A stretch of DNA of 41,953 nt. Origin: a virus. A program made the position numbers and the translations under genes. The DNA is taken from positions 1 through 41,953 of IMG/VR virus record IMGVR_UViG_3300021976_000035, one strand, 5' to 3'. Below, piece by piece: positions 13,894 to 41,902 of the stretch. Every line of letters starts with the position of its first letter. Within the stretch, counting starts at the first letter, position 1. The notes beneath the pieces were generated by a model, which worked only from the letters and a program-made list of their open reading frames with translations, did not search any database and was not told the origin of the DNA.

Positions 13894-16800
13894 GCGGTGT
13901 CGATGATCGCGTTGTTTCTATGGATTTCCAGAACAGCAGATTTGAGCGAGGTGTAAGCACCACCATCAGTTCGCTTGCTAAACTGAAAGATAGCCTGAAT
14001 TTCTCCGGATCGAAGAAGGGTCTCGACGAACTTCAAGCTAGTGGTTCTCGTTTCAATCTCAGCGGTATGAGTACTTCGATTACCGGAGTTTCTGGCAAAC
14101 TTTTGGCAATGGGCACAATTGGTATAACTGCCTTAGCTAACATCACCAATCGAGCTGTCAATGCTGGTTTAACTCTTGCAAAGTCTCTTACCATCGCTCC
14201 AATCACGTCTGGTTTCCACGAATATGAAACACAACTAAATGCTGTTCAGACGATTCTTGCCAACACAGCATCTCAGGGTGCCAAAATTGGTGACGTCAAT
14301 AAAGCTTTGAATCAGTTGAACACATATTCTGATAAGACAATTTACAACTTTAGTGAGATGGCCAAGAATATTGGCACATTCACTGCTGCTGGTGTAGATC
14401 TTAAGACTTCTGTGGCATCCATCAAGGGTATTGCGAATATTGCAGCCTTGTCTGGTTCTACTTCAGAACAAGCCAGTACGGCAATGTACCAACTATCGCA
14501 GGCTATTGCAGCTAATAAGGTTGGCTTGCAGGACTGGAACTCAGTTGTCAATGCTGGTATGGGTGGTAAGGCTTTCCAGGAAGCGTTGTTCAATACTGGT
14601 AAGAATCTTAAGACGATCAAGGGTGTGGATATTCACACCACGTTCGATCAGTGGACCAAAGCGGGTAATTCGTTCCGTGGTTCTCTGCAAGATGGCTGGT
14701 TGACTGGTAAAGTCCTGACTCAGACACTTGATACGTTTACAGGCGATCTAACAGACGCTCAGCTAAAAGCTATGGGCTATAATAAGGATCAGATTCTTCA
14801 AATCCAAGCCTTGGCTAAGAATGCGTCGAATGCAGCAACTAAAGTCAAGACAATGTCGCAGCTTATCGATACTACGAAAGAGGCTATTGGTTCGGGTTGG
14901 ACTCAGACCTGGCAGATTTTCTTCGGTAACTTCGATGAGGCTAGAACAACATTTACTAATTTCAGTCAGTCTATTAACCAGTTCGTCAGTAATTCTGCCA
15001 ACGCTAGAAACAAAGTTCTCGGAGATTGGAAGACCCTAGGCGGTCGAGCCGTCCTTCTGCAAAGTATTAGTCAGATCTTCGAAGCTCTTGGTGCTGTTCT
15101 AATTCCGATTAAGGAAGCATTCCGAGAATTCTTCCCGGCCAAAACCGGTCGAGATCTCTACAATATGACCGTAGGATTCAAGAATTTCCTAGATGAAATC
15201 ACAGTAGGCGTTAAAACTTCTGAGAATATAAAGAGAACGTTCGCGGGATTGTTCGCTGTTGTTGATATTGGTCGACAGATTCTCCGTGGCATTATCAACG
15301 TATTTGGAACTCTTCTTGGAACTATATTCACAGGTTCTGGGAGTATCACGGCATTCACTGCTAATATCGGTGATTTCCTGGTAGCCCTTGACCAGTCCTT
15401 GAAGAAGGGTGGTCAAATAAATGATTTCTTCAACAAACTGGCTGATATTCTAGCGGTTCCACTAGCTATCCTAATTGAGGTTGCTAAAGCTGTTTATGGT
15501 TTGTTCGATGGATTTAATCAAGACGATGCCACAGGAATGTCTGATTCTGTTTCAAGAATTGGACAGCGCCTAGATGGACTTAATAGCTCAATGGGTCGCG
15601 TCGTTGATTTCTTCCAGAAAGTAAAGGCAAAGATCCAACCAGGAATTGATTCGATCGAGAAAGCATTCAACAAAATTGGCGAAGTTATTGCTAATGCTTT
15701 CAGTGAGGCTCAATTTAGTGGAATTCTGGATGTAGTAAACACTGGTCTTCTAGCTGGTCTTGCTTTGTTGATTCGAAAGTTCTTGAAGAACGGACTAAAG
15801 CTAGATTTCAGCGGTGGTTTGGTTGACTCAATCAAGGGCACATTTGACGGTCTAACCGCCACAATGAAGTCGATGCAAACTCAACTCAAGGCCAATACGC
15901 TTGAGAAGATTGCAATCGCCATTGGTGTCCTTACTGCATCAGTATTGGTGCTGTCTTTGATCGACTCTGCAAAGCTATCCAAGGCTTTAGCTGCAATGGC
16001 TGTGGGCTTTGGTGAACTTCTCGCTGCAATGGCATTATTGACTAAGATTTCTGGCTCCGCGGGATTTGCGAAAGTTCCAATTATTGCCAGTTCTATGATT
16101 CTGCTTTCAACAGCGGTACTGATCCTGACATTCGCATTGCGGAATCTCTCTGGGCTTGACTGGGGCCAACTAGCCAAGGGACTAGCAGGCTTGGCAGGGA
16201 TTCTTCTCCTCTTGTCAATCGCAGTGAAGCCTCTTTCAGCTAACTCGAGTGGGATGATCACTGCCGGTATCGGTATTACGGCACTTGCAGTGGCTTTGAA
16301 CATCATGTATCTAGCTGTGTTGGCTTTCTCTACCCTAAATACCAAGGCTATGATCAAGGGTCTCGCCGGCGTCGCTGGAGCTCTCGTAGCTGTTGCACTC
16401 GCGGCTAGATTGATGCCTAAGGGCATGGTTGCAACAGGAGCTGGACTACTCGAGATCTCGATTGCTTTGAATGCTCTATATTTGGCAATCAAATTATTCT
16501 CGACCCTAAACTGGACCGAAATGGGCAAGGGTCTGGTAGGGATTGGCGCAGGGTTGATCGTTATCGCCGGCGCTATGCATCTCATGCCTAAGGGTATGGT
16601 GCTACAGGCAGCTGCTCTCGATCTCATCGCTGTGGCTCTCCTAGGCATCGGCAAGGCTGTAGGAAATATGGGATCGCTGAACTGGACCCAAATTGGTAAG
16701 GGTCTAGGGACGATGGCCGCTACCTTGTTGATTCTAGCCGGCGCACTCCATCTTATGCAATCTACCCTTTCTGGAGCAGCTTCATTGGCTCTGGCCGCGG

Positions 16801-18422
16801 TGGGTATAACGCTTCTGTCGAATGCTATTCAGAAACTGAGTGGTATGTCATGGAAGAATATTGCAAAGGGTTTGGGTGTTCTCGCAGGAGCACTTGGGAT
16901 TCTTGTCCTTGCTGGACTAGGTGCAGAAGCTGTTATACCAGGACTTCTTGTCTTGGGTGTTGCTGCATTAGGTTTAGGAGCCGGGTTGGCTCTTGCTGGT
17001 ATAGGTATAGGTGCACTTGCTAACGGTCTGGCTGCTTTGGCTAAGAGCGGTGCGCAAGGTATTGCGGTTCTACTCAAGGCTTTCCAGACGTTCATTGCGC
17101 AAATTCCTACCGTTGCAACGGCACTAGCAGTAGGGTTTGTTAACGTACTGAAGAAGATTGGCGAGAACGGTCCAGCTATTACCGCAGCATTCATCGTTAT
17201 TATCGGATCTATACTAACTGCAATCACGGTTAATATTCCTAAATTTGGTCTATTGATGACCACGCTTATCACTACAATGCTCGCGGTATTGTTAACAAAC
17301 GGGCCTAGAATTATCGCCGCAGGATTAACGTTGCTTATTCAGCTACTCCAAGGCGTTTCGAATAACATGCCTAAGGTTACTGCTTTAGTTGCCGATATAA
17401 TCGTTAAATTCCTTACTGCTTTGGCAGCGAAAACGCCAGCTATTGTTACTGCTGGTTTGACTCTGCTTATCCAGTTCTTGCTGGGCATTAGCAGGAACGT
17501 TGGACGAGTAGCTGGTGCTGTTGGCAGCATTATCACTTCGTTCATCAATGCCGTATCTAGTAATGTAGGGAGAATTGTTACTGCTGGCGCTAATGCTGTT
17601 ATCAGTTTCGTTAGTGGTCTCGGTAGAAACGCTAGTAGGATCGTCGCGGCTGGTGTTACAGCTATTATAAGCTTTATATCTGGCCTTGGTACACAAGGTG
17701 TGAAGATTGCCAACGCCGCAGGAAAAACGATTCTTGATTTCCTCAGAGGTCTTCAAGGTGCAATTAGAACCTACGAGCCTCAGATCATTTCCGCCATGTT
17801 TGGCGTAGGCGTAGCAATGATCGAAGGTATTATCGATGGACTAGGAGATATCGCTGGACAAATCACCAAGAAGATCACCGGTGGTCTAGGTGGCGTTGTA
17901 AACAACGTAAAGAACTTCCTCCATGTTGGTGTACCGTCGAAGCTCTTCGCTGATGAGATTGGTTCAACGATTCCACTAGGTATTGCATTGGGAATCGATC
18001 AGGAAGCTCATGTTGTTAATAAATCGGCAGTAAACATGGTCGATGGCTTGGTTAACACCATGGGTAAATCTCTTTCTGGAGTTCCCGATATGTTGGCTGG
18101 AATCATTAATTTGGATCCAACCATTTCTCCTGTGTTGGATTTAACAAATCTTCAGAAAACTGCCACACAAATTCCTAAGATTTTGGCTCCGGGGGTAATT
18201 TCCCCAACTGTTTCTAGAAACCAGGCTGTTTCTGCAGCAACATCAATAACTGCCGGATCGCAATCGCCTGTTGAGAAGGCTACGAACGCTACACCTACTG
18301 GTCCGACTACTGTTGAATTCAATCAGACTAATATCTCTCCAAAGACTTTGTCAGCGGTAGAGATTTATAGGAATACTAAGAACCAACTCTCTCTCGCGAA
18401 GGAGGCGTTGAAGATCTCATGA
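13890..18422 (+). CDS. tape measure protein
   Basis: At 1510 residues this is the longest protein in the window; it sets tail length and may help DNA cross the envelope. The N-terminal part has typical segments such as YETQLNAVQTILANTASQ and MYQLSQAIAANKVGLQDWNS. Residues ~650-1080 are strongly hydrophobic and include about five repeats of a module with LNWTEMGKGLVGIGAGL-like sequence, each followed by a hydrophobic helix and sometimes LMPKGM. A later segment has repeated FISGLG/FVSGLG units. The C-terminal region carries NFLHVGVPSKLFADEIGSTIP, common in tape measures. There is no peptidase motif that I can see. The start overlaps the previous gene by ATGA. Confidence 0.93.
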   Translation: MSGVDDRVVSMDFQNSRFERGVSTTISSLAKLKDSLNFSGSKKGLDELQASGSRFNLSGMSTSITGVSGKLLAMGTIGITALANITNRAVNAGLTLAKSLTIAPITSGFHEYETQLNAVQTILANTASQGAKIGDVNKALNQLNTYSDKTIYNFSEMAKNIGTFTAAGVDLKTSVASIKGIANIAALSGSTSEQASTAMYQLSQAIAANKVGLQDWNSVVNAGMGGKAFQEALFNTGKNLKTIKGVDIHTTFDQWTKAGNSFRGSLQDGWLTGKVLTQTLDTFTGDLTDAQLKAMGYNKDQILQIQALAKNASNAATKVKTMSQLIDTTKEAIGSGWTQTWQIFFGNFDEARTTFTNFSQSINQFVSNSANARNKVLGDWKTLGGRAVLLQSISQIFEALGAVLIPIKEAFREFFPAKTGRDLYNMTVGFKNFLDEITVGVKTSENIKRTFAGLFAVVDIGRQILRGIINVFGTLLGTIFTGSGSITAFTANIGDFLVALDQSLKKGGQINDFFNKLADILAVPLAILIEVAKAVYGLFDGFNQDDATGMSDSVSRIGQRLDGLNSSMGRVVDFFQKVKAKIQPGIDSIEKAFNKIGEVIANAFSEAQFSGILDVVNTGLLAGLALLIRKFLKNGLKLDFSGGLVDSIKGTFDGLTATMKSMQTQLKANTLEKIAIAIGVLTASVLVLSLIDSAKLSKALAAMAVGFGELLAAMALLTKISGSAGFAKVPIIASSMILLSTAVLILTFALRNLSGLDWGQLAKGLAGLAGILLLLSIAVKPLSANSSGMITAGIGITALAVALNIMYLAVLAFSTLNTKAMIKGLAGVAGALVAVALAARLMPKGMVATGAGLLEISIALNALYLAIKLFSTLNWTEMGKGLVGIGAGLIVIAGAMHLMPKGMVLQAAALDLIAVALLGIGKAVGNMGSLNWTQIGKGLGTMAATLLILAGALHLMQSTLSGAASLALAAVGITLLSNAIQKLSGMSWKNIAKGLGVLAGALGILVLAGLGAEAVIPGLLVLGVAALGLGAGLALAGIGIGALANGLAALAKSGAQGIAVLLKAFQTFIAQIPTVATALAVGFVNVLKKIGENGPAITAAFIVIIGSILTAITVNIPKFGLLMTTLITTMLAVLLTNGPRIIAAGLTLLIQLLQGVSNNMPKVTALVADIIVKFLTALAAKTPAIVTAGLTLLIQFLLGISRNVGRVAGAVGSIITSFINAVSSNVGRIVTAGANAVISFVSGLGRNASRIVAAGVTAIISFISGLGTQGVKIANAAGKTILDFLRGLQGAIRTYEPQIISAMFGVGVAMIEGIIDGLGDIAGQITKKITGGLGGVVNNVKNFLHVGVPSKLFADEIGSTIPLGIALGIDQEAHVVNKSAVNMVDGLVNTMGKSLSGVPDMLAGIINLDPTISPVLDLTNLQKTATQIPKILAPGVISPTVSRNQAVSAATSITAGSQSPVEKATNATPTGPTTVEFNQTNISPKTLSAVEIYRNTKNQLSLAKEALKIS

Positions 18423-20363: not shown

Positions 20364-20639
20364 GTGGATCCGACAGTACAAGTTGCCCTCATTGGTATTT
20401 TTATTACCATCATAACAACAATAGGATTAGTTGTCGTAACGGTAATAAATAGTCGACGAGAAAAAAGCGATAGCGCACAAAAGGCGTTAGAAAGCGTTCA
20501 TCGAGAACGCATCGAATTCAAAGACGAAATAATTGCCGATCTACGTTCTGATCTTGTAGATGCTTATCGAGAAATAAAAAACCTTACAGCCATTCCACAA
20601 GAGGAACGGGAGAAGGGTAAACATGGACGACATGAATGA
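20364..20639 (+). CDS. small membrane protein, possible holin-like or fibre accessory
   Basis: A 91-residue protein with one clear membrane segment near residues 5-27 (VQVALIGIFITIITTIGLVVVTV) followed by a charged coiled-coil-like helix (REKSDSAQKALESVHRER...). The topology fits either a small holin/antiholin or an anchor protein. It sits between the tail tip and the collagen-like protein in the lysis end of the late operon. GTG 20364 is chosen because AGGAGGAA is 6 nt upstream. No family can be named with certainty. Confidence 0.6.
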   Translation: MDPTVQVALIGIFITIITTIGLVVVTVINSRREKSDSAQKALESVHRERIEFKDEIIADLRSDLVDAYREIKNLTAIPQEEREKGKHGRHE

Positions 20640-21327
20640 GCATGATACCCGAATCGTCCGTGAAGCCGTTAGTGAGAGTAAGAACCCTAGAACTCGGTGG
20701 CTTATTTGGATTCTGAGTTTTATTGCTCTGACTAGTTGTATATCGGCGTTAACGGCAGCTTGGTATATTTGGGATAAGAAACAAACTCAAGTAAATGCTG
20801 GCAGAAATTTAGCAATTCAAGTCCAAACCGCATGCAAACAGGGATATTTAGCTGGTCAGCTGTGCACAACGGCTAAGGACGTAGAGAAAGTCGCTAAGGA
20901 TGGACCTCAGGGCCCCCCAGGGGCTGCTGGCGGAAGTGGTCCTCAGGGTCCAGCTGGTCCTAAGGGCGATACAGGTACCAACGGAGCTCCTGGGTTGCCA
21001 GGTGTGAATGGAGCTAAAGGTGATCCCGGTTCGGTGGGTCCACAGGGTTTGAAAGGTATCGTTGGCGATGCTGGTTCTGAAGGGGATCAGGGAATCCAAG
21101 GGATACCCGGACCAACGGGTCCTAAAGGAGATACCGGCGATACCGGCGATACTGGTGATCAAGGAGTAAAGGGTGACGTTGGTGATACCGGTCCTAAAGG
21201 AGATACCGGCGACAGTGCTTTTCCATTCACTTTTGAATTCACCATTCCCGCGACTCTCACCTCACCAGCGATAACATACTCGGTAACGTGTACGTCGTCA
21301 ACAGAATGTGTAGTCACCCAAAATTAA
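20623..21327 (+). CDS. membrane-anchored collagen-like protein
   Basis: A 234-residue protein. Residues 1-26 are charged, ~27-48 form a membrane segment (WLIWILSFIALTSCISALTAAW), and ~93-198 are an almost unbroken Gly-X-Y repeat with many Pro, Lys and Asp residues (GPKGDTG units). The last ~36 residues are a small Thr/Ser-rich beta-like tail with two cysteines. The repeat should form a collagen triple helix. A membrane anchor is odd for a virion fibre; possible roles include a surface-displayed host modifier or a spanin/holin-associated stalk. It overlaps the previous gene by 17 nt, and GAGAAGGG precedes the ATG. Confidence 0.75.
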   Translation: MDDMNEHDTRIVREAVSESKNPRTRWLIWILSFIALTSCISALTAAWYIWDKKQTQVNAGRNLAIQVQTACKQGYLAGQLCTTAKDVEKVAKDGPQGPPGAAGGSGPQGPAGPKGDTGTNGAPGLPGVNGAKGDPGSVGPQGLKGIVGDAGSEGDQGIQGIPGPTGPKGDTGDTGDTGDQGVKGDVGDTGPKGDTGDSAFPFTFEFTIPATLTSPAITYSVTCTSSTECVVTQN

Positions 21328-21762: not shown

Positions 21763-21788
21763 GTCGCATAGTTAACTTGGACTATAAT
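21763..21788 (+). promoter_or_regulatory. promoter module copy 1 (GTCGCA-N14-TATAATGAGA)
   Basis: GTCGCA at 21763-21768, then 14 nt, then TATAAT at 21783-21788 followed by GAGACC. The ATG of the next gene is 30 nt from the start of TATAAT. The same box, spacing and GAGA tail recur five more times downstream, so this is very likely a promoter for the small-gene region. Confidence 0.8.
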
Positions 21789-21812
21789 GAGACCCCTATT
21801 TAAGGAGAACGC

Positions 21813-22097
21813 ATGTTCATCAACAAACCTCAGTCGAAAACACCACTCGACGAGGTGATCGAAGATGCGCTCGAACAGTTGAAAGGATTAGATGTTTCGG
21901 ATGAGAAGTACACCAACCAGGTGGACAACGTAGAAAAACTTATGAAGCTCAGGCACATAGAAAGGCCAGAGCGATTGAGCAAGGACACGTTGGCCATGGT
22001 TGCGGGTAACCTCTTCGGAATACTCGTAATCGTTGGACACGAACGAGCGCATATCGTGACCTCGAAAGCGCTGAATTTCGTGCTGAAGTCAAGATGA
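21813..22097 (+). CDS. small protein with C-terminal hydrophobic segment, unknown function
   Basis: A 94-residue protein with an acidic helical N-terminal half (TPLDEVIEDALEQLKGLDV, NVEKLMKLRHIE) and a C-terminal hydrophobic segment around TLAMVAGNLFGILVIVGHERAH, ending with basic residues. Small proteins of this pattern are frequent in actinobacterial phages, but I know no function. It is probably a tail-anchored inner-membrane protein. It has its own promoter (copy 1) and a TAAGGAGAAC ribosome site, so it is likely the first gene of the early region. Confidence 0.7.
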   Translation: MFINKPQSKTPLDEVIEDALEQLKGLDVSDEKYTNQVDNVEKLMKLRHIERPERLSKDTLAMVAGNLFGILVIVGHERAHIVTSKALNFVLKSR

Positions 22098-22233: not shown

Positions 22234-22259
22234 GTCGCAGATATTACGCCGCATATAAT
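22234..22259 (+). promoter_or_regulatory. promoter module copy 2
   Basis: GTCGCA at 22234-22239, 14 nt, TATAAT at 22254-22259, then GAGACCCTA. The start codon of the next gene is again 30 nt from the start of TATAAT. A CCCCGGGG palindrome lies just upstream at 22211-22218. Confidence 0.82.
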
Positions 22260-22283
22260 GAGACCCTAATCTAAGGAGACCAA

Positions 22284-22505: not shown

Positions 22506-22538
22506 AAGCCTCTAGCCCCCACAAGGGCTTTAGGTTTT
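22506..22538 (+). terminator. hairpin terminator
   Basis: CCTCTAGCCC (22509-22518) pairs with GGGCTTTAGG (22525-22534) apart from two central mismatches, with a 6-nt loop, and is followed by TTTT. It lies 4 nt past the preceding stop codon. Confidence 0.6.
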
Positions 22539-22542
22539 GCAA

Positions 22543-22568
22543 TTCGCAGAAAACACACGGCTCATAAT
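22543..22568 (+). promoter_or_regulatory. promoter module copy 3
   Basis: TTCGCA at 22543-22548, 14 nt, CATAAT at 22563-22568, then GAGAAGG. One base differs from the consensus in each box, but spacing and the GAGA tail are kept. It would drive the structured leader and the genes from 22752. Confidence 0.72.
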
Positions 22569-22667
22569 GAGAAGGAAGTCGCAATGTGCGACAGCTATGA
22601 ATAAAGTAGTAGCACTTCTCATTAATTTTTCCGGTCTTGGATATGGAACAGTTTCGTCAACTGTTCT
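22569..22667 (+). promoter_or_regulatory. structured leader with tiny ORF in a hairpin loop
   Basis: Downstream of promoter copy 3 there are three inverted repeats. AATGAGAAG (22566-22574) is perfectly complementary to CTTCTCATT (22615-22623). GTCGCA (22578-22583) and TGCGAC (22587-22592) form a hairpin whose 3-nt loop is an ATG. GAACAGTT (22646-22653) and AACTGTTC (22659-22666) form an 8-bp stem. The ATG opens a six-codon ORF (22584-22604, MCDSYE) preceded by GAAGGAA. This resembles a regulated leader, though the hairpin could also be a protein-binding site because it repeats the promoter box. Confidence 0.5.
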
Positions 22668-23124: not shown

Positions 23125-23279
23125 AAACTGCCCTCGAGATTGTGGGTATATTCTATGCTGTTTGCATCCTAATCGTCTTGGGGGCTTGTGTCGTTGAATA
23201 TATTTGCCATTCAGTATCGAAGGAGGAGCAAGACCAATTCTTCGCCGATATAGAGGAGTTCCGACGTGACTTTAATTAA
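23121..23279 (+). CDS. 52-residue small membrane protein
   Basis: One membrane helix near residues 5-27 (LEIVGIFYAVCILIVLGACVVEY) followed by an acidic tail ending EEFRRDFN. It starts in an ATGA overlap with the previous gene. Its last codons form the first copy of a 16-bp direct repeat (23264-23279), and the next gene starts inside it at GTG 23266. Function unknown. Confidence 0.55.
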   Translation: MKTALEIVGIFYAVCILIVLGACVVEYICHSVSKEEQDQFFADIEEFRRDFN

Positions 23280-23712
23280 AGAACATCTTTGTCGCTATCA
23301 GGTAATTTATATTTCAGCGACAAGTTCTATGGTCGTCGCAGGAGTTACTTGGTTTATAATGAGAAAGAATACAGGACTGCTTTGCGGGCCTGGCTTCGAA
23401 TTGCTTAGCGAATCGAAGGAACCTGGCAAGGTTGCAGTAAATTCTACTGCTCGTTCTTTCTCTTTTAATTTCCTCACAAAAGATAGTGGCAATCAAAAAA
23501 CTAGAAACAATATCTATGCTACAATCCATAACGGAAATAAAGGATCTTCTGGTTTTATTACACGATCGTTAGATACAGGACAGTTGTTTGAAACACAAAA
23601 AGCTGCAGCAGAAGCATTCGAAATTCCACAATCTATTTTATCCTCACATCTTAATGGAAAATTTGACGATGCAATCGGTTATCATTTTGAGAGAATAGGT
23701 GTTTTAACGTGA
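23266..23712 (+). CDS. membrane-anchored NUMOD1-domain protein
   Basis: A 148-residue protein with a hydrophobic segment near 12-32 (QVIYISATSSMVVAGVTWFIM), a Ser/Asn-rich linker, and a C-terminal NUMOD1-like domain at ~96-145: FITRSLDTGQLFETQKAAAEAF then EIPQSILSSHLNGKF, the strand-HTH pattern of this DNA-binding module. NUMOD1 usually accompanies homing endonucleases, but no nuclease domain is present. A membrane-tethered DNA-binding domain would be a notable design. The gene is flanked by a 16-bp direct repeat, contains a TTGTCGCT/AGCGACAA hairpin (23289-23325) and promoter copy 4. GTG start overlaps the previous gene by 14 nt. Confidence 0.6.
   Translation: MTLIKEHLCRYQVIYISATSSMVVAGVTWFIMRKNTGLLCGPGFELLSESKEPGKVAVNSTARSFSFNFLTKDSGNQKTRNNIYATIHNGNKGSSGFITRSLDTGQLFETQKAAAEAFEIPQSILSSHLNGKFDDAIGYHFERIGVLT
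23335..23360 (+). promoter_or_regulatory. promoter module copy 4 (inside a gene)
   Basis: GTCGCA at 23335-23340, 14 nt, TATAAT at 23355-23360, then GAGAAAG. It matches the consensus exactly but lies within the TM-NUMOD1 coding region, with no start codon at the usual ~30-nt distance. It could drive the DUF6353-like gene at 23709 or be a relic of the inserted DNA. Confidence 0.65.
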
Positions 23713-24963: not shown

Positions 24964-24988
24964 TCGCAACAATTACTGGTCTCTTAAT
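24963..24988 (+). promoter_or_regulatory. promoter module copy 5
   Basis: GTCGCA at 24963-24968, starting within the preceding stop codon, 14 nt, CTTAAT at 24983-24988, then GAGAAC. Box spacing and GAGA tail match the other copies. The next ATG is 36 nt downstream of the start of the -10 element. Confidence 0.72.
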
Positions 24989-25018
24989 GAGAACACTCTC
25001 AAACCGAAAGGAACCAAA

Positions 25019-25917: not shown

Positions 25918-25943
25918 CTCGCACAAACAACAGCTCATATAAT
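25918..25943 (+). promoter_or_regulatory. promoter module copy 6
   Basis: CTCGCA at 25918-25923, 14 nt, TATAAT at 25938-25943, then GAGACCCTA. The next ATG is 28 nt from the start of TATAAT. The preceding 115 nt (25801-25917) contain several short inverted repeats but no gene that I can support. Confidence 0.8.
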
Positions 25944-25965
25944 GAGACCCTACGAAAGGAATATC

Positions 25966-29508: not shown

Positions 29509-32500
29509 ATGGACTTCTACCGAATCAAGACGAAGGAATTAAAAAGCAAGAAGTGGGAAGTATATCCAGAGTTTGTGATCAAGCGATCGAGAGATCTTAT
29601 GATTCGTGGACATGCTTTCTATGCTATCTGGGACGAAGCTAATGCTGTTTGGTCTACGGACGAATACGATGTACAGCGCCTAGTAGACGAAGAATTATAC
29701 ACCCATGCTAAGCAGCTTGGTTCAGATACCATCGTCAAAGACCTCCAATCGTTCAACAGTAATTCCTGGTCTCAGTTCAAGTTGTTCGTCAATAAGATCA
29801 GCGACAATAGTCATAACCTCAATGAGAAATTGACATTCGAAAACACTGAGGTTAAGAAGAGTGATTACGCTAGTCATCGTTTGCACTATAGCCTTCATCC
29901 TGGGACTCATAATCATTGGGATGAGCTAATAGGGACTCTCTACAACGTGGAGGAAAGGGCGAAGATAGAATGGGCTATCGGCTCGATTGTAGCGGGGGAT
30001 TCGAAGAGGATCCAGAAATTTCTGGTGTTGTATGGTCCTGCGGGAACCGGCAAATCAACCGTCCTGAATATTATCGAGAAGTTGTTTTCCGGATACACGA
30101 CAACGTTCGAAGCGAAGGCCCTGGGGAGCAACAACGGGACGTTCGCCACAGAAGCGTTTAAGAACAATCCTCTAGTTGCGATCCAACACGATGGGGATTT
30201 GAGTAAGATCGAGGACAACACAAAGCTTAATTCGATCATCTCCCATGAAGAGATGACAATGAACGAGAAATACAAGCCGAGTTACACCTCGAGGTCCCAT
30301 GCGTTTCTATTCATGGGTACGAACCAACCGGTCAAGATCTCCGACGCCAAATCCGGAATCATTAGGAGGTTGGTTGATGTTCAGCCGACCGGCGTCAAGA
30401 TCCCGACAAATCATTATCACACTCTCATGGCACAAATCGATTTTGAACTGGGCGCAATTGCTCAGCATTGTCTTGATGTATACCGATCGATGGGCAAGAA
30501 CCACTACAATGCTTATCGACCGCTGGAGATGATGTTCCAAACCGACATCTTCTACAACTTCATCGAGGCGCACTTCGATATATTCAAAGCACAAAATGGT
30601 GTTACGCTCAAGCAGGCATATACGTTGTACAAGGAATATTGCAACGACACTGGTGTTGAACGACCGTTACCACAATACAAGATGCGTGAAGAACTAAGAA
30701 ACTATTTCGAGTACTTCGACACGAGTCATATTGTCGATGGAGTTATTACTCGGAGCTGGTTCTCCGGCTTCAATGCCAATAAATACAAAGCACCAACTGA
30801 TGAGGCTAACACATTCTCGTTGGTTATCGAGGAAACTGAATCATTACTAGATGCGGAGTTCGCTAATGAACCTGCCCAATATGCTAAGGATGACGGTACA
30901 CCATCTATACGATGGGCTAAGGTCGAGTCTAGACTTTCTCAACTTGACACCAGGAAATTACATTACGTCAAAGTACCTGAAAGCCACATTGTTATCGACT
31001 TTGATCTCAAAGAAATCAACGGTACCAAATCTCTCGAGCGGAACCTCGAAGCCGCAAGTACTTGGCCTGCCACTTACGCTGAGCTTAGCAAATCTGGAAC
31101 CGCAGTGCACCTCCACTACATCTATGACGGCGATACTTCGGAGCTTCGAAGTGAGTATTCCGACGGAATTGAAGTTAAGGTGTACCGAGGAGATGCGGCT
31201 CTGCGACGTCGGCTTACTAAATGCAATGCTGTGCCCATTGCGTCAATTAACTCAGGACTCCCATTAAAGGAGAAAAAGATGATCTCCGATCAAACCATCA
31301 AGAGTGAGAAAGGTCTTCGTGATTTGATCGCTCGGAATTTGAGGAAGGAGATCCATCCAGGAACAAAGCCGTCAATCGATTTCATCGCCAAGATTCTAGA
31401 TGAGGCGTATAAATCAGATATGCAATACGACGTCACGGATCTTCGTCCTAAGATTCTGGCGTTTGCAGGTAATAGTAGTAATCAATCTCTGCTGTGCATT
31501 AAGGTTGTACAGCGGATGAAGTTCGCTTCTGAGGTACAAGAGAGTACTAATAAGGCTACGGACGATCGACTGGTTATCTACGATGTCGAGACCTATCCGA
31601 ATTTGTTTGTGATTTGCTGGAAGTACCAGGGTGATGCAAATATTGTTCGGATGATTAATCCGAAGCCAGCTGAAGTTGAGGCTCTGTTTGGGTTTAAGCT
31701 TGTGGGATTCAACAACCGTCGCTATGACAATCACATGCTTTACGCGGCGTCTATGGGCTATAACAACGAGCAGCTATTCCAACTGTCTCAGAAACTGATC
31801 GACAACCAGCGGTCTGCATATTTCGGTGCGGCATATAATTTGTCGTATTGCGATATCTGGGACTTCAGCTCGAAAAAGCAAGGTCTCAAGAAATTCGAGA
31901 TTGATCTGGGTATCCATCACATGGAGCTTGATTTGCCGTGGGATCAGCCGGTTAAGGACGAGGATATTCCTCGAGTGGTTGAGTACTGCTGCAACGATGT
32001 AGTGGCTACCGAGGCTACTCTCGAAGATCGTAAGCAGGATTTCGTAGCACGACAGATTTTGGCTGAGTTGTCTGGGCTTAGTGTAAACGACACCACCCAG
32101 CGACACACAGCTAAGATTGTCTTTGGTGATGATCGAGATGCACACAAGGATTTTATCTACACTGATCTGAGTAAGGAATTCCCCGGGTACGAATTCGACC
32201 TGGGTAAGAGCACATATAGAGGAGAGGATCCTGGTGAAGGAGGTTACGTCTATGCCGAGCCGGGTATGTACGATAACGTTGCTGTTCTGGATGTTGTTTC
32301 GATGCATCCGACGACTATCGTCAACCTCAATGCCTTTGGTCCCTATACGCCCAAGTTCAGAGATCTCCTCGATGCTCGAATCGCTATTAAACGTGGAGAT
32401 TACACCGTGGCAAGAGAGAGTCTTGGAGGACTTCTTCGACCTTTCCTCGTTGACGAAACCCAAGCCGATAAACTTGCGTATGCGCTAAAGATCATTATCA

Positions 32501-33225
32501 ATATTGTCTATGGTCTGACTTCGGCTAAGTTCGACAATCCATTCCGAGACAAGCGCAACGTCGATAATATCGTAGCCAAGCGTGGTGCCCTCTTCATGAT
32601 TGATTTGAAGAATGCGGTACAAGAGCAGGGCTTCACGGTTGCACACATCAAGACTGACTCAATAAAGATTCCAGATGCAACACCTGAGATTATCGAATTC
32701 GTCATTAACTTCGGGAGCAAGTATGGATACGAATTCGAACACGAAGCAACTTACGATAAGTTCTGCCTTGTCAACGACGCGGTTTACATCGCTCGAAAAG
32801 AATCAAGCTGGACTGCTGTCGGATCGCAATTCCAACACCCCTATGTATTCAAGACTCTTTTCACTCACGAACCAGTCGTGTTCACTGATCTATGTGAAAC
32901 ACGTTCTGTTGTTCAAGGAGTAATGTATCTCGACTTCGAGCAGAAGGAAAAGCCTATTGCTCTGGAGACGGGGAAGATGCAACATGTCGGCAAGACCGGT
33001 AGTTTCGTTCCGGTTATGTTTGGTGGTGCTGTCCTATACCGGATTAAGGACGACAAGCACTTTGCAGTAGGTGGTACGAAGAATCACTTGTGGATCGAGG
33101 CTGAGATGGCCAAGGATCTGGGTGATGATTTGATGGTTGACATGTTGTATTTCGAGAGACTGGCTGAGCAGGCTAGAGAAGCAATCGACTATTATGGTTC
33201 ATTCAATAACTTTGTGAAGGAGTGA
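29509..33225 (+). CDS. SF3 helicase-AEP primase-family B DNA polymerase fusion
   Basis: A 1238-residue multidomain replication protein. Residues ~140-330: SF3 helicase with Walker A GPAGTGKST (176-184), acidic Walker B near HDGDLS (227-232), sensor-like MGTNQP (269-274) and an Arg motif GIIRRL (283-288). Residues ~465-585: AEP-like primase motifs IDFDL (496-500), SKSGTAVHLHY (527-537) and IEVKVY (554-559). Residues ~686-1238: exonuclease motifs DVET (692-695), FNNRRYD (734-740) and YCCND (826-830), then polymerase motifs DVVSMHP (928-934), KIIINIVYG (994-1002) and KTDS (1048-1051). Motif A-B and B-C spacings are too short for the TPR1 and TPR2 insertions of phi29-type enzymes. GAAAGGAGGG precedes the ATG. 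No other polymerase, primase or hexameric helicase gene is present, so this is likely the core replisome. Confidence 0.82.
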   Translation: MDFYRIKTKELKSKKWEVYPEFVIKRSRDLMIRGHAFYAIWDEANAVWSTDEYDVQRLVDEELYTHAKQLGSDTIVKDLQSFNSNSWSQFKLFVNKISDNSHNLNEKLTFENTEVKKSDYASHRLHYSLHPGTHNHWDELIGTLYNVEERAKIEWAIGSIVAGDSKRIQKFLVLYGPAGTGKSTVLNIIEKLFSGYTTTFEAKALGSNNGTFATEAFKNNPLVAIQHDGDLSKIEDNTKLNSIISHEEMTMNEKYKPSYTSRSHAFLFMGTNQPVKISDAKSGIIRRLVDVQPTGVKIPTNHYHTLMAQIDFELGAIAQHCLDVYRSMGKNHYNAYRPLEMMFQTDIFYNFIEAHFDIFKAQNGVTLKQAYTLYKEYCNDTGVERPLPQYKMREELRNYFEYFDTSHIVDGVITRSWFSGFNANKYKAPTDEANTFSLVIEETESLLDAEFANEPAQYAKDDGTPSIRWAKVESRLSQLDTRKLHYVKVPESHIVIDFDLKEINGTKSLERNLEAASTWPATYAELSKSGTAVHLHYIYDGDTSELRSEYSDGIEVKVYRGDAALRRRLTKCNAVPIASINSGLPLKEKKMISDQTIKSEKGLRDLIARNLRKEIHPGTKPSIDFIAKILDEAYKSDMQYDVTDLRPKILAFAGNSSNQSLLCIKVVQRMKFASEVQESTNKATDDRLVIYDVETYPNLFVICWKYQGDANIVRMINPKPAEVEALFGFKLVGFNNRRYDNHMLYAASMGYNNEQLFQLSQKLIDNQRSAYFGAAYNLSYCDIWDFSSKKQGLKKFEIDLGIHHMELDLPWDQPVKDEDIPRVVEYCCNDVVATEATLEDRKQDFVARQILAELSGLSVNDTTQRHTAKIVFGDDRDAHKDFIYTDLSKEFPGYEFDLGKSTYRGEDPGEGGYVYAEPGMYDNVAVLDVVSMHPTTIVNLNAFGPYTPKFRDLLDARIAIKRGDYTVARESLGGLLRPFLVDETQADKLAYALKIIINIVYGLTSAKFDNPFRDKRNVDNIVAKRGALFMIDLKNAVQEQGFTVAHIKTDSIKIPDATPEIIEFVINFGSKYGYEFEHEATYDKFCLVNDAVYIARKESSWTAVGSQFQHPYVFKTLFTHEPVVFTDLCETRSVVQGVMYLDFEQKEKPIALETGKMQHVGKTGSFVPVMFGGAVLYRIKDDKHFAVGGTKNHLWIEAEMAKDLGDDLMVDMLYFERLAEQAREAIDYYGSFNNFVKE

Positions 33226-37545: not shown

Positions 37546-38070
37546 ATGAGAAAAGAGACATGGTTAAATATCTATGGCTTTGAAAACTATGCAGTTAGCG
37601 ACATGGGTCGTATTATAAATACAGTAACGGATTTGATTAAGACTCCAACTATGAATCAACAAGGTATTCCGAGTGTATTATTTGTTAAGGATCGTATTCA
37701 ACATCGTCGTAGCGTAGCTGTATTGGTTGCTGAAGCGTTCTTAGAACCACATATGAATAAATGGTTTGACACTCCAACCAACATTAACGGCGATCGTCTT
37801 GATAATTGTGTAGATAACCTTATGTGGCGGCCGAGATGGTTTGCAGTTAAGTATCATCAGCAAATGAAGAATGGTCCAAGAACCAATTATCCATCTCGAC
37901 CAATCATGGACGAAGATACAGAAGAAATTTATTCATCTCAATGGGAAGCTGCTACAAAGTTAGGTTTATTAGAGGGCGACATTGTGGTTGCCGTATTCAA
38001 TAAAGAGGCAGTGTTTCCAGGAGGATATCGATTCTGTTTTGTTGAGAATGATCTCGTAGATATTAACTAG
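37546..38070 (+). CDS. NUMOD4-HNH-NUMOD1 homing-type protein, possibly inactive
   Basis: A 174-residue protein. Residues ~4-25 (ETWLNIYGFENYAVSDMGRIIN) match NUMOD4. Residues ~57-95 resemble the HNH region (VAVLVAEAFLEP ... NINGDRLDNCVDNLMW), but the usual His of NHINGD is Asn here. Residues ~121-160 resemble a NUMOD1 repeat (EIYSSQWEAATKLGLLEG). It is probably a free-standing homing endonuclease or a domesticated DNA-binding protein. AT-rich composition and flanking intergenic DNA suggest recent insertion between the helicase and nuclease genes. GAAAGGTGG precedes the ATG. Confidence 0.72.
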   Translation: MRKETWLNIYGFENYAVSDMGRIINTVTDLIKTPTMNQQGIPSVLFVKDRIQHRRSVAVLVAEAFLEPHMNKWFDTPTNINGDRLDNCVDNLMWRPRWFAVKYHQQMKNGPRTNYPSRPIMDEDTEEIYSSQWEAATKLGLLEGDIVVAVFNKEAVFPGGYRFCFVENDLVDIN

Positions 38071-38139: not shown

Positions 38140-38475
38140 ATGTTAGAGCGATACTATCAGGCAGAGCTTATTAAGAGAATTCGTCGTCGTTTCCAAGACT
38201 GTATAATCCTAAAGAACGACACAGATTATATACAGGGTATGCCTGATTTAACAATCCTTTACGAAGACAGATGGGCCGTACTCGAAGTTAAAGCTTCTGA
38301 GGATGCTTGTTCTGAACCGAACCAAGATTGGTATATTAATCGGTTGAACGACATGTCTTTCGCAGCTTTTATCTATCCCGAAAATGAAGAGGAGGTGTTG
38401 GATGCTCTTCAACAAGCATTTAGATCGCGTAGGCCAACACGCGTTTCTCTCGCCAAGCGTGTATCATTGGATTAA
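38140..38475 (+). CDS. VRR-NUC endonuclease
   Basis: A 111-residue nuclease of the VRR-NUC/PD-(D/E)XK type. QGMPDLTILYEDRWAVLEVKAS (about 32-53) gives Asp36 and the Glu49-x-Lys51 catalytic pair, followed by QDWYINRL. Members cut structured DNA such as Holliday junctions or flaps. It overlaps the next nuclease gene by 74 nt. AAAGGAGGG precedes the ATG. The helicase and Cas4/RecB-type nuclease nearby suggest joint processing of replication or packaging intermediates. Confidence 0.8.
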   Translation: MLERYYQAELIKRIRRRFQDCIILKNDTDYIQGMPDLTILYEDRWAVLEVKASEDACSEPNQDWYINRLNDMSFAAFIYPENEEEVLDALQQAFRSRRPTRVSLAKRVSLD

Positions 38476-38962
38476 CTATGATGACGAAAGACTGGAAGCT
38501 CGATTCGTAACTTCTATGGCTGCGCAGCGTGGAAGCGAACTACATGCTCTAGCGCATCAGGCTATTCGATTAGGTGTTAAGCTTCCTAAGAGTCAGAAGA
38601 GTTTGAACATGTATGTTAACGACGCTATTGGTTATAGAATGAGTTCTGAACAAACTCTTTATTATTCTGAGAATTGTTTTGGTACTGCTGATGCTATCTC
38701 ATTCAGACGAAACATGCTTCGTATTCATGATCTTAAGACTGGTGTTACTCCAACATCAGAACATCAATTAGAGGTATATGCTGCTCTCTTCTGTCTTGAG
38801 TATAGATTCAAGCCTATGGAGATCGAGATTGAAATGCGTATCTATCAGAACGATGAAGCTCGAGTTTATATTGCTGACCCAGACGATATCACGCACATTA
38901 TGAGTAAGATCATCATGTTCGATAAGAGGATCACTGAGATGCGATTGGAGGCGCTATCGTGA
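38402..38962 (+). CDS. Cas4/RecB-type PD-(D/E)XK exonuclease
   Basis: A 186-residue nuclease. RGSELHALAHQAI (43-55) gives the N-terminal His motif, FGTADAI (93-99) the Asp, IHDLKTG (108-114) the Asp/Lys pair, and HQLEVYAAL (121-129) the Gln/Tyr motif of the RecB/Cas4-like family. There is no cysteine cluster, so it lacks the Fe-S cluster seen in Cas4. ATG 38402 is chosen over 38384 because GGAGGT lies 5 nt before it. It overlaps the RNA polymerase-like gene by GTGA, so the two are coupled. Confidence 0.82.
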   Translation: MLFNKHLDRVGQHAFLSPSVYHWINYDDERLEARFVTSMAAQRGSELHALAHQAIRLGVKLPKSQKSLNMYVNDAIGYRMSSEQTLYYSENCFGTADAISFRRNMLRIHDLKTGVTPTSEHQLEVYAALFCLEYRFKPMEIEIEMRIYQNDEARVYIADPDDITHIMSKIIMFDKRITEMRLEALS

Positions 38963-41613
38963 CAGTTATCGATGAGGAGGATTACCTGGCCCACTACGGT
39001 GTACTCCGTCGTTCTGGTCGTTATCCATGGGGCTCAGGCGGCCCTGAGCATGCGTCTAACGATAGTTTTTTGGGTATGGTAGACAACCTTCGTAAGCAGG
39101 GTCTTAGCGAGACTGATATTGCTCGTGGCATGGGTATAACAACAACTCAATTGCGTGCCGCAAAGTCTATTGCTAAAACAGAACAACGTCAGGCCAGTAT
39201 TGCAAATGCTCAGCGCTTGAAGGATAAGGGTTATTCGAACGTAGCCATCGGTGAACGTATGAGCATCAATGAATCTTCCGTCCGTAGCCTGCTCGAGCCT
39301 GGTCGTAAAGATAAGACCAATATTCTCGAGACTACGTCGAACATGCTGAAAGATCAGGTAGCTGAGAAAGGTTTCATCGACATCGGTTCTGGAGTAGAGA
39401 ATCATGTTGGTGTTAGTCGAACTAAATTGGACACTGCCGTAGCTATGTTAAAGGAGAAGGGTTATGAAGTCCACAACGTCCAGATCGATCAATTGGGTAC
39501 TGGCAATAAGACTCTGGTCAAAGTACTTGGGCCTCCTGGCACTACTTATCGTGACATTGTTTCTGATAAAAGTAAGATCAAGCAGATCACGGATTTCTCA
39601 GACGATGGTGGCCGATCCTTCCTTGGTCTTCAACCACCACTCAATGTTAGCTCCAAACGGGTGGCTATACGATATGCGGAAGACGGTGGCGCAGATGCAG
39701 ATGGAGTTATCTATGTTCGCCCGGGCGTCAAGGATATATCTCTAGGTACTGCTAGATATGCTCAGGTTCGTATTGCTGTTGATGGTACGCATTATCTTAA
39801 AGGTATGGCTATGTACAAGGATGACTTGCCTGCTGGAACAGATCTTATGTTTAATACGAACAAAAGTAATACAGGTAATAAAAACGATGCAATGAAAGCT
39901 TTAAAGGATGATCCTGACAACCCTTTCGGAGCTATTGTTCGTCAGCGAATTGAGAAAGGCAAAGACGGAAAGGATCGAGTTACTTCCGCAATGAATGTTG
40001 TGAATGAAGAAGGCGATTGGGAAGGTTGGTCTCGTAACCTATCTTCCCAGTTCTTGTCTAAGCAAAGTCCAAAGCTTGCTAAGACACAGCTAGATATGAC
40101 TTATGAGAAGCGTAAAGCAGATCTCGATGAGATCATGAGTCTTACTAACCCTGCTGTTCGTAAGAAACTTCTTGAGTCGTATGCTGATGATGCTGATTCA
40201 GCTGCCGTTCACCTAAAGGCTGCCGCTCTACCACGTCAAGCATCACATGTTATCCTTCCTATTAACAGCATAAAGCAGACAGAGATCTATGCACCCAACT
40301 ATAGGAATGGTGAATCGGTTGTTCTCGTTCGTTATCCACATGGTGGGCCATTCGAGATCCCAGAACTAAGAGTAAATAATAATCATCCGGAAGCTAAGAA
40401 GCTCCTAGGTCAAGCTCGAGATGCGGTTGGTATCCACAGCAAGGTTGCTGAGCGTCTATCTGGTGCTGACTTCGACGGCGATACGGTTCTTGTCGTACCG
40501 AATAATGCAGGAAAGATCAAGACTTCTCCTGCGCTTGAGGGTCTTAAGAAGTTTGATCCTCGATCTTCCTATCCCGCATATGATGGCATGCCAAAGATAA
40601 GTCCTAGTAGGAAACAACATGAGATGGGCAACGTAACCAATCTCATTGCAGACATGACTATTAGGGGTGCGAATACCACCGAGCTTGCTGCAGCAGTTCG
40701 ACATTCAATGGTAGTCATCGATGCAGAGAAGCATAACCTTAACTATAAGCAGTCTGCTCTTGATAATGGTATTGGCCATCTTAAAGAGAAGTATCAAGGT
40801 AACACTAGAGCAGGTGCCTCTACTCTAGTAACTAGAGCTACCTCAGAGATTAGAGTACCTACTAGGAAAGCACGGTCTGCTGCAAAGGGTGGTCCTATAG
40901 ATAAGGCAACAGGTAAGAAGGTCTTTGAGAACACAGATGATACTTTTGTCAATCGTGCAGGTAAGGTAGTCAAGAAGACCATCTCGTCTAAGAAGCTAGC
41001 CGAGACTGATAATGCACATAGTCTGTCTTCTGGTACCCCCATTGAGAAGGTGTATGCAGATCATTCCAATAAGCTTAAGGCTTTGGCTAACGAAGCTAGG
41101 AAGGCTGCAGTAACTACACGTACTACGCCCTACTCACCCTCTGCAAAGACCGCCTACTCTAGACAAGTCACCTCTCTTAATGCGAAGCTGAACATAGCCT
41201 TGAAGAACGCCCCACTTGAACGGCAGGCCCAGATCTTAGCCAATACTGTGGTATCTACCAAGAGACAAGCTAACACTGATATGGATTCAGCTGATCTAAA
41301 GAAGGTCAAAGCACAAGCATTAGCTGAAGCTCGCTCACGTACTGGTGCTAAGAAGCAACAAGTACAGATCACTGCTGATGAATGGGCAGCCATCCAATCA
41401 GGTGCTATTAGTAACAACAAGTTGTCACAGATACTGAACAATGCAGATCTAGATCAAGTAAAGAAGTTGGCAACACCAAGAGCTAATCTTGTTATGACTT
41501 CTATTAAACAACAGAGAGCTAAGCAGATGCTTGCGTCTGGATACACACAGGCTGAAGTAGCTGACGCTCTAGGTGTAGCACTGTCCACTCTTAAGTCAAG
41601 CATAGTGAAGTGA
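38959..41613 (+). CDS. single-subunit RNA polymerase-like protein with HTH segments
   Basis: An 884-residue protein. RLSGADFDGDTVLVVPN (499-515) contains DFDGD (504-508), the metal-binding signature of RNA polymerase beta-prime-type double-psi beta-barrels, as in YonO and QDE-1-like enzymes; VLVRYPHGGPF lies ~45 residues before it as in that barrel. Downstream, RKQHEMGNVTNLIADM and RHSMVVIDAEKHNLNY may correspond to the next conserved segments. Near the N-terminus are HYGVLRRSGRYPWGSG (12-27), a phage tag motif, and two HTH-like segments (~44-68 and ~85-112); a third is at ~852-882 (ASGYTQAEVADALGVALSTLKS). GTG start overlaps the previous gene by GTGA. The polymerase activity is an inference from one strong motif. 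Confidence 0.68.
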   Translation: MTVIDEEDYLAHYGVLRRSGRYPWGSGGPEHASNDSFLGMVDNLRKQGLSETDIARGMGITTTQLRAAKSIAKTEQRQASIANAQRLKDKGYSNVAIGERMSINESSVRSLLEPGRKDKTNILETTSNMLKDQVAEKGFIDIGSGVENHVGVSRTKLDTAVAMLKEKGYEVHNVQIDQLGTGNKTLVKVLGPPGTTYRDIVSDKSKIKQITDFSDDGGRSFLGLQPPLNVSSKRVAIRYAEDGGADADGVIYVRPGVKDISLGTARYAQVRIAVDGTHYLKGMAMYKDDLPAGTDLMFNTNKSNTGNKNDAMKALKDDPDNPFGAIVRQRIEKGKDGKDRVTSAMNVVNEEGDWEGWSRNLSSQFLSKQSPKLAKTQLDMTYEKRKADLDEIMSLTNPAVRKKLLESYADDADSAAVHLKAAALPRQASHVILPINSIKQTEIYAPNYRNGESVVLVRYPHGGPFEIPELRVNNNHPEAKKLLGQARDAVGIHSKVAERLSGADFDGDTVLVVPNNAGKIKTSPALEGLKKFDPRSSYPAYDGMPKISPSRKQHEMGNVTNLIADMTIRGANTTELAAAVRHSMVVIDAEKHNLNYKQSALDNGIGHLKEKYQGNTRAGASTLVTRATSEIRVPTRKARSAAKGGPIDKATGKKVFENTDDTFVNRAGKVVKKTISSKKLAETDNAHSLSSGTPIEKVYADHSNKLKALANEARKAAVTTRTTPYSPSAKTAYSRQVTSLNAKLNIALKNAPLERQAQILANTVVSTKRQANTDMDSADLKKVKAQALAEARSRTGAKKQQVQITADEWAAIQSGAISNNKLSQILNNADLDQVKKLATPRANLVMTSIKQQRAKQMLASGYTQAEVADALGVALSTLKSSIVK

Positions 41614-41623
41614 GGTGATCGTG

Positions 41624-41902
41624 ATGACTCAACCATTGAATGATACTGAATACATGTTGACTACTGTTGATAATCCTTACGATCCCTTCACACAGTTCGA
41701 TGAGTGGTTGTCGTTTGATACAGCTGCTGGATATCACACCCCTTCCCTCCTCGCTAGGGTAGTGAAGAGTTCAGATGATTTGTCTGAGGCCGATCAGCGT
41801 GTGGCAATAGTCGATGCAATAAATGAAATTGTAAATGAAAATGTTTTAGGAATTTATAAAAAAGTTTCGTCAGCTGCAATATATAAAGATGTTGGAGATT
41901 AA
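41624..41902 (+). CDS. conserved phage protein adjacent to packaging genes
   Basis: A 92-residue protein with VDNPYDPFTQFDEWLSFDTAAGYHTPSLLARV and LSEADQRVAIVDAINEIVNENVLGIYKKVS. The NPYDPFTQ-DEW pattern is conserved in many phages near the small terminase, function unknown. ATG 41624 follows GAGGTGAT; the frame also opens at GTG 41615. If the genome ends join, it would lie just upstream of the small-terminase-like gene at position 90, consistent with that neighbourhood. Confidence 0.62.
   Translation: MTQPLNDTEYMLTTVDNPYDPFTQFDEWLSFDTAAGYHTPSLLARVVKSSDDLSEADQRVAIVDAINEIVNENVLGIYKKVSSAAIYKDVGD

Follow-up and report, generated by a model that had tools for sequence, protein, structure and literature searches.

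The window analysed here, a virus record of 41,953 bp taken at its full length, shows synteny to phages of the genus Scapunavirus, among them HotFries and RosaAsantewaa, and the virus infects soil bacteria. An ORF with a GTG start at 38959-41613 (+) encodes an 884-residue member of phrog_4291, here referred to as RNAP, which its ORF, profile, AlphaFold model and fold matches mark as a predicted single-chain two-barrel RNA polymerase. The protein contains GADFDGDTVLVVP, inside which D504-F-D-G-D508 forms the putative catalytic DFDGD motif (residues 504-508; 40468..40482, +); the motif fits the DxDGD pattern of two-barrel RNA polymerases and is invariant in an alignment of 56 diverse family members, and the first-pass annotation had placed both the motif and the 884-residue ORF exactly. 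The phrog_4291 profile spans residues 5-882 (E = 0, 1374 bits), making RNAP a full-length member. Because about 250 phage records contain full-length homologues, the ORF and its motif are more than a product of chance; the hosts of these phages are Arthrobacter, Gordonia, Streptomyces, Rhodococcus, Microbacterium, Curtobacterium, Lactococcus and Faecalibacterium. Public records list the relatives as "RNA-dependent RNA polymerase", the name used in RefSeq, or as "HTH protein", and the open-licence literature yielded no functional study of this family.

RNAP lies in a block of nuclease genes, as had been proposed from the sequence: a VRR-Nuc-type nuclease gene (38140..38475, +; named by synteny with Scap1 gp53) and a gene for a RecB/Cas4-like exonuclease (phrog_3953 by profile match; 38384..38962, +) precede it. 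Directly downstream is the small conserved gene phrog_4303 (41615..41902, +), which occupies this place in all of the complete annotated relatives that were examined, with MLTTxDNPxNPFT kept, and whose product is a candidate cofactor of RNAP. Among the phrog_4291 proteins of actinophages and of the Lactococcus phages 1706 and P078, the window protein is a member with the same neighbours, i.e. the exonuclease upstream in most and the small phrog_4303 gene downstream. Elsewhere in the window, a NUMOD4/HNH endonuclease, possibly a homing endonuclease, is encoded at 37546-38070 between the helicase and nuclease genes; an ORF for a membrane-anchored protein with collagen-like GxY repeats (20623-21327) adjoins the lysis region; and 29509-33225 encodes a primase/helicase-type ATPase fused to a family B DNA polymerase (phrog_4210), a polymerase common to the same phage groups as RNAP.

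Domain architecture and predicted fold of RNAP

The helix-turn-helix (HTH) segments that were suggested to bracket the protein, two N-terminal and one C-terminal, are borne out by profile searches. At the C-terminus (residues 848-882; 41500..41604, +), HTH_23 matches residues 852-878 with 25.9 bits against a Pfam cut-off of 24.6. At the N-terminus (residues about 34-111; 39058..39291, +), two HTH-like segments at residues ~34-66 and ~72-111 match the phage HTH families phrog_6831 and phrog_3855 and are also seen in the AlphaFold model. As a separate observation, one 95.6-kb contig (record G061, locus L165) carries at 16720-17520 a 360-aa ORF whose similarity to RNAP is confined to the N-terminal HTH part, and the full RNAP is also present there.

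Sequence and profile searches of RNAP against the PDB returned HTH-level and chance matches and no RNA polymerase. An AlphaFold2 model built with 56 relatives as input has a mean pLDDT of 80 and a pTM of 0.65, and a Foldseek search with the full model gave 12 significant PDB matches, all to two-barrel polymerases, i.e. QDE-1 (E = 1.9e-9), P74-26 gp62 (E = 8.8e-8) and RDR2. With VIA-align, the Z-scores were 17.1 for RDR2, 16.7 for QDE-1 and 12.7 for P23-45 gp64, with about 340-380 aligned residues within RNAP residues 220-720; residues 227-720 of the model align with QDE-1 681-1188. The predicted catalytic barrel, DPBB-A, comprises residues 425-518 (40231..40512, +) in the model and the structural alignment, and is followed 3' by two helices at residues 549-592 (40603..40734, +; alignment and AlphaFold model) that, by their position, may be bridge-helix-like. 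The predicted second barrel, DPBB-B, comprises residues 224-352 (39628..40014, +; alignment, structure prediction and fold searches) and contains the residues H278, K281 and G282 (HYLKG), which are invariant in the 56-sequence alignment, and the nearly invariant K287. Predicted separately, residues 218-366 reach a pLDDT of 86. This lone DPBB-B model retrieves QDE-1 681-792, the matching barrel of RDR2 and P74-26 gp62, with no match below an E of 0.4, and double-psi barrel folds at low Z of 3-5, a weak but consistent signal; the match list consists largely of proteins that we take to be double-psi barrels.

The first-pass annotation had held that a fold without a second barrel, or with DFDGD away from any active site, would speak against a polymerase; neither was found in the model and, since DPBB-B by itself retrieves double-psi barrels, a second barrel is predicted to be present. 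Because both barrels match QDE-1, RDR2 and gp62/gp64 and DPBB-B alone retrieves double-psi barrels, we regard the predicted fold, a single-chain RNA polymerase with two double-psi barrels, as firm. The fold matches to QDE-1, RDR2 and P23-45 gp64 also support the original assignment to a YonO/QDE-1 type of RNA polymerase with predicted activity, and very probably RNAP catalyses RNA synthesis.

It is highly improbable that the template is RNA. An RNA-dependent RNA polymerase copying RNA is what the RefSeq family name and the PHROG name imply, and QDE-1 and RDR2 are the closest folds. The name, however, appears to rest on distant similarity, as the Pfam RdRP family of QDE-1 and the RDR proteins (PF05183) scores 14.4 bits on RNAP, under its curated cut-off of 23.8; moreover, the phage is a DNA phage, the protein has HTH DNA-binding segments, and YonO strongly prefers DNA templates (PMC5467207).

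A conserved promoter-like element and predicted small structured RNAs

Repeat analysis of the window revealed a 36-bp element, TCGCA-N14-TATAATGAGA, with four exact copies, five at up to one mismatch and six at up to two, all on the + strand between 21.7 and 26 kb; 300 random sequences gave no copies at up to one mismatch and a maximum of one at up to two. The six copies precede early genes, as we judge them from their position, or small structured RNAs; within the window, neither the late genes nor the RNAP gene have a copy in front of them. Copies 1 (21764..21799, +) and 2 (22235..22270, +) lie before gene starts at 21813 and 22284, respectively, copies 3 (22544..22579, +) and 4 (23336..23371, +) before predicted small RNAs, copy 5 (24964..24999, +; two mismatches) before a Shine-Dalgarno sequence and an ATG, and copy 6 (25919..25954, +) before AAAGGA and an ATG (about 25966). 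Directly 5' of copy 3, a hairpin scan detected a terminator-like hairpin (22514..22529, +), and such hairpins lie upstream of many copies of the element (121 of 458 versus 14 for shuffled sequences).

The element extends far beyond the window. Exact matches to a slightly looser pattern occur in 26 of 36 RNAP-bearing records (86 in total, on one strand per record), while the reversed pattern used as a control gave none in the same 36 records. The consensus of 380 non-redundant sites from all loci is TCGCARRAWTTACATGGCCTATAATGAGACCCCTAC, after which come AAAGGA and, about 49 nt away from the T of TCGCA, a start codon; the search pattern itself fixed TCGCA, GAGA and the first and last T of TATAAT, and the C of ACA is essentially invariant at these sites although it was absent from the imposed pattern. 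Unbiased pair counting recovered the element in Gordonia phage Secretariat, Streptomyces phages Rima and Bing, Rhodococcus phage ReqiPepy6 and Arthrobacter phage Breylor17, variants in Mudcat and JoyLin, and, in Lactococcus phages P078 and P1046, the core as TTTTACATNCCCTATAATGA or TTTACAN4CTATAGTAGA. A scan with a position weight matrix (PWM) against shuffled sequences confirmed most of these results, and the de novo and PWM analyses together place the element in phages of Streptomyces, Gordonia, Rhodococcus, Arthrobacter, Curtobacterium and Microbacterium and in an oral contig. PWM scan and pair counting gave no convincing copies in three RNAP-bearing records, Faecalibacterium phage FP_oengus and the gut contigs L088 and MT835495. 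Some copies have distinctive surroundings: in HotFries (L092, 22700) and Bing (L231, 5797 and 7041) they are flanked by the inverted repeat GTAGGGGTC / GACCCCTAC, and in Lactococcus phage P078 (L228, near 23987) a copy of the core lies directly 5' of a tRNA-like sequence (TTTAGCTCAGAGGGAGAGC).

About 20 sites without an obvious gene precede a closed, multibranched RNA of 57-128 nt in predicted folds. These RNAs begin at the G right after TATAAT, and in each the first 6-10 nt are paired with a 3' copy that precedes a T-rich tail. Among the 80 sites without CC after GAGA, a 3' copy of the 5' GAGA.. end was found at 25, compared with two in shuffled sequences, with a T tail after many; A's immediately beyond the G can trivially pair with the T tail, and such pairs were given no weight as evidence. 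The two small RNAs in the window belong to this wider set in related phages, some of which share AGACACGAATGTGT. One is a predicted closed RNA of 52 nt (22569..22620, +; -18.8 kcal/mol, z -2.9) followed by ATTAATTTTT, the other a predicted multibranched RNA of 102 nt (23361..23462, +; -43.7 kcal/mol) with a 10-bp terminal stem and a T tail. Rfam gave no match for the small RNAs of the window and six related loci, and ARAGORN no tRNA at the small-RNA sites. The start assigned to the ORF called at 23266-23712, at the least, is probably wrong, since this ORF begins 5' of the promoter element and runs across the 102-nt RNA.

Judged from these structured RNAs, the transcription start is apparently the G that adjoins TATAAT on its 3' side, which would put TATAAT at positions -6 to -1, unlike the geometry of sigma-70 promoters. 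This bears on the question of which polymerase reads the element. We consider it quite unlikely that host RNA polymerase does so, whether unaided or helped by an activator of the phage or the host at TCGCA, with the phage enzyme having another role. TATAAT is a perfect sigma-70 -10 consensus and early phage promoters are often host promoters; against this stand the apparent start 1 nt and not about 7 nt after TATAAT, the conservation that runs from TCGCA through this start into GAGACCCC, and the occurrence of the same core in phages of two host phyla. Moreover, a sigma-70 scan of the region found no -35 at a spacing of 16-18 nt at the copies; none of the sites that it reported is a copy of the element, and they were fewer than in shuffled sequences. 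A simple sigma-70 promoter was accordingly rejected as an account of the element.

Co-occurrence connects the element with RNAP. When viral contigs were picked independently by the element alone, 38 of the 49 records examined proved to encode RNAP, among them each of the 30 that reach 40 kb or more; the contigs without RNAP are shorter, and five of them encode the full-length replication polymerase of the lineage, so that in at least five cases small contigs without RNAP are fragments of the same phages. Because element and RNAP are co-inherited in one lineage, however, their co-occurrence alone is no proof that RNAP reads the element, a point that also favours a host enzyme, as co-inheritance cannot separate RNAP from other core genes. 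Full-length homologues of the replication polymerase occur in 252 records, compared with 249 for RNAP, in the same phage groups; a phage with this polymerase and no RNAP, sought as a control among the full-length homologues in the viral collection, was not found, and other conserved proteins could therefore read the element. Weighing these data, we consider it likely that RNAP recognises the 36-bp element. The idea that the HTH segments could let the enzyme find promoters without a sigma factor gains indirect support from a conserved promoter element that is not of the sigma-70 type.

The N-terminal tag and possible carriage in the virion

Residues 12-27 of RNAP (38992..39039, +) form a motif, HYGVLRRSGRYPWGSG, that is conserved in the family alignment and lies in a segment (residues 1-30) predicted to be disordered, with a pLDDT below 50. 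The motif had been described at first pass as a tag shared with other phage proteins; it is real, conserved and present on other phage proteins, but within the window RNAP is its sole carrier. Outside the RNAP family, every occurrence of the tag that was found is on a head-block protein in a gut phage contig (L085/L238/L239); these proteins are small, mostly lysine-rich and encoded beside terminase and portal genes, and a related HHGIRGQKWG form occurs alongside it in gut phage contigs. Adjoining head-block ORFs with HYGxPRRSGRYKWGSG or HHGIRGQKWG at their N-termini lie at 5298-7407 in L239 and 1305-4214 in L085. A literature search for the variant GMKWG gave nothing relevant. These occurrences suggest that the N-terminal motif is a head-targeting tag, and it may be a general packaging signal.

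A second line of evidence comes from Lactococcus phage 1706, in which orf75 is 38% identical to RNAP over 993 columns and was deposited as a "structural protein", like several otherwise nameless ORFs; the terminase, portal, capsid/protease and tail ORFs of this phage carry just "putative" names, and we infer that the label reflects proteomic evidence of the depositors. ReqiPepy6 gp106 repeats the label. On balance, we find it plausible, and somewhat favoured by the data, that RNAP is carried in the virion.

A different course of infection, in which host RNA polymerase makes RNAP early and RNAP then transcribes other phage genes in the manner of YonO, with the element as its promoter after first expression or as a host promoter, is unlikely in our view but deserves serious weight. 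It has a precedent in YonO, the DNA-dependent RNA polymerase for the late genes of SPbeta that is needed in phage development (PMC5467207), and it fits the position of the RNAP gene, which closes the early block next to genes for replication and nucleases and would precede the late genes after circularisation. It is at odds with the deposition of the 1706 homologue as a structural protein, with the presence of the element before early and not before late genes in the window, and with the recurrence of the N-terminal tag on head-block proteins.

A model for early transcription and comparison with known systems

Based on the sequence family, the predicted fold, the promoter motif and the co-occurrence of motif and enzyme, we suggest the following model. 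The gene product would be a DNA-dependent RNA polymerase of one chain with two double-psi barrels that belongs to the QDE-1/YonO/P23-45 gp64 superfamily. The virion would carry it, packaged by way of the N-terminal HYG..SGRYPWGSG tail as tag, and it would enter the cell together with the phage DNA and start early transcription. Needing no sigma factor, it would use its own HTH segments to read the 36-bp promoter, i.e. TCGCA, then TTACA, then TATAAT touching GAGACCCC, with the G after TATAAT as the start, in front of early genes and small RNAs. The parts of this model differ in strength, with the fold firm, the activity very likely, the pairing with the promoter likely and carriage in the virion plausible; for the whole chain, a virion-carried, sigma-free two-barrel polymerase firing early promoters, we see the chances as evenly balanced. 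With less than even confidence, we tentatively extend the model to a lineage of tailed phages across two host phyla, in which a sigma-free two-barrel polymerase of the virion has a portable tag and the aid of phrog_4303, and dedicated promoters with TATAAT at the start drive early genes and closed small RNAs. In the open-licence literature, we found no description of the promoter, the small RNAs or virion carriage for this lineage.

Should the model hold, transcription would start independently of the host, with a promoter consensus ready, in about 250 sequenced phages that infect Streptomyces, Gordonia, Arthrobacter, Rhodococcus and Lactococcus. RNAP would then be a compact relative of cellular RNA polymerase for the study of sigma-free promoter recognition and a candidate for orthogonal gene expression in Actinobacteria, and the unexplained "HTH protein / RdRP" annotation would be explained.

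YonO of Bacillus phage SPbeta is a single-chain DNA-dependent RNA polymerase that transcribes late genes and prefers DNA templates (PMC5467207), P23-45 encodes virion and non-virion two-barrel RNA polymerases with their own promoters (PMC10770324), and YonO-like enzymes are known from some jumbo phages (PMC7824862). Thus, the polymerase in the window is of a known kind, with an ancient kinship to the RNA polymerase of cells. By description only, it resembles YonO in being phage-encoded, a single chain of about 100 kDa and in having a catalytic Asp triad; YonO differs in its late-gene role, whereas the element in the window precedes early genes and a homologue of RNAP is labelled structural. 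With P23-45 gp96 (virion) and with gp64 and P74-26 gp62 (non-virion), RNAP shares the two-barrel single-chain fold, and with gp96 also the putative carriage in the virion. The phage-specific motifs before early genes are a likeness to the Thermus phage enzymes in kind; unlike those enzymes, RNAP has no tape measure fusion, bears HTH segments at both ends and carries its tag at the N-terminus. QDE-1 and RDR2 are the closest solved folds (Z 16-17 over about 375 aligned residues, about 13% identity) and differ in their role in eukaryotic RNA silencing, with RNAP scoring under the cut-off of Pfam RdRP. The element in the window resembles the promoters of T7 RNA polymerase in forming a strict block that spans the start, with TATA immediately 5' of the +1 G. 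The right-hand fold of T7 RNA polymerase differs from the two-barrel fold predicted for RNAP, and the element in the window is longer, with TCGCA upstream.
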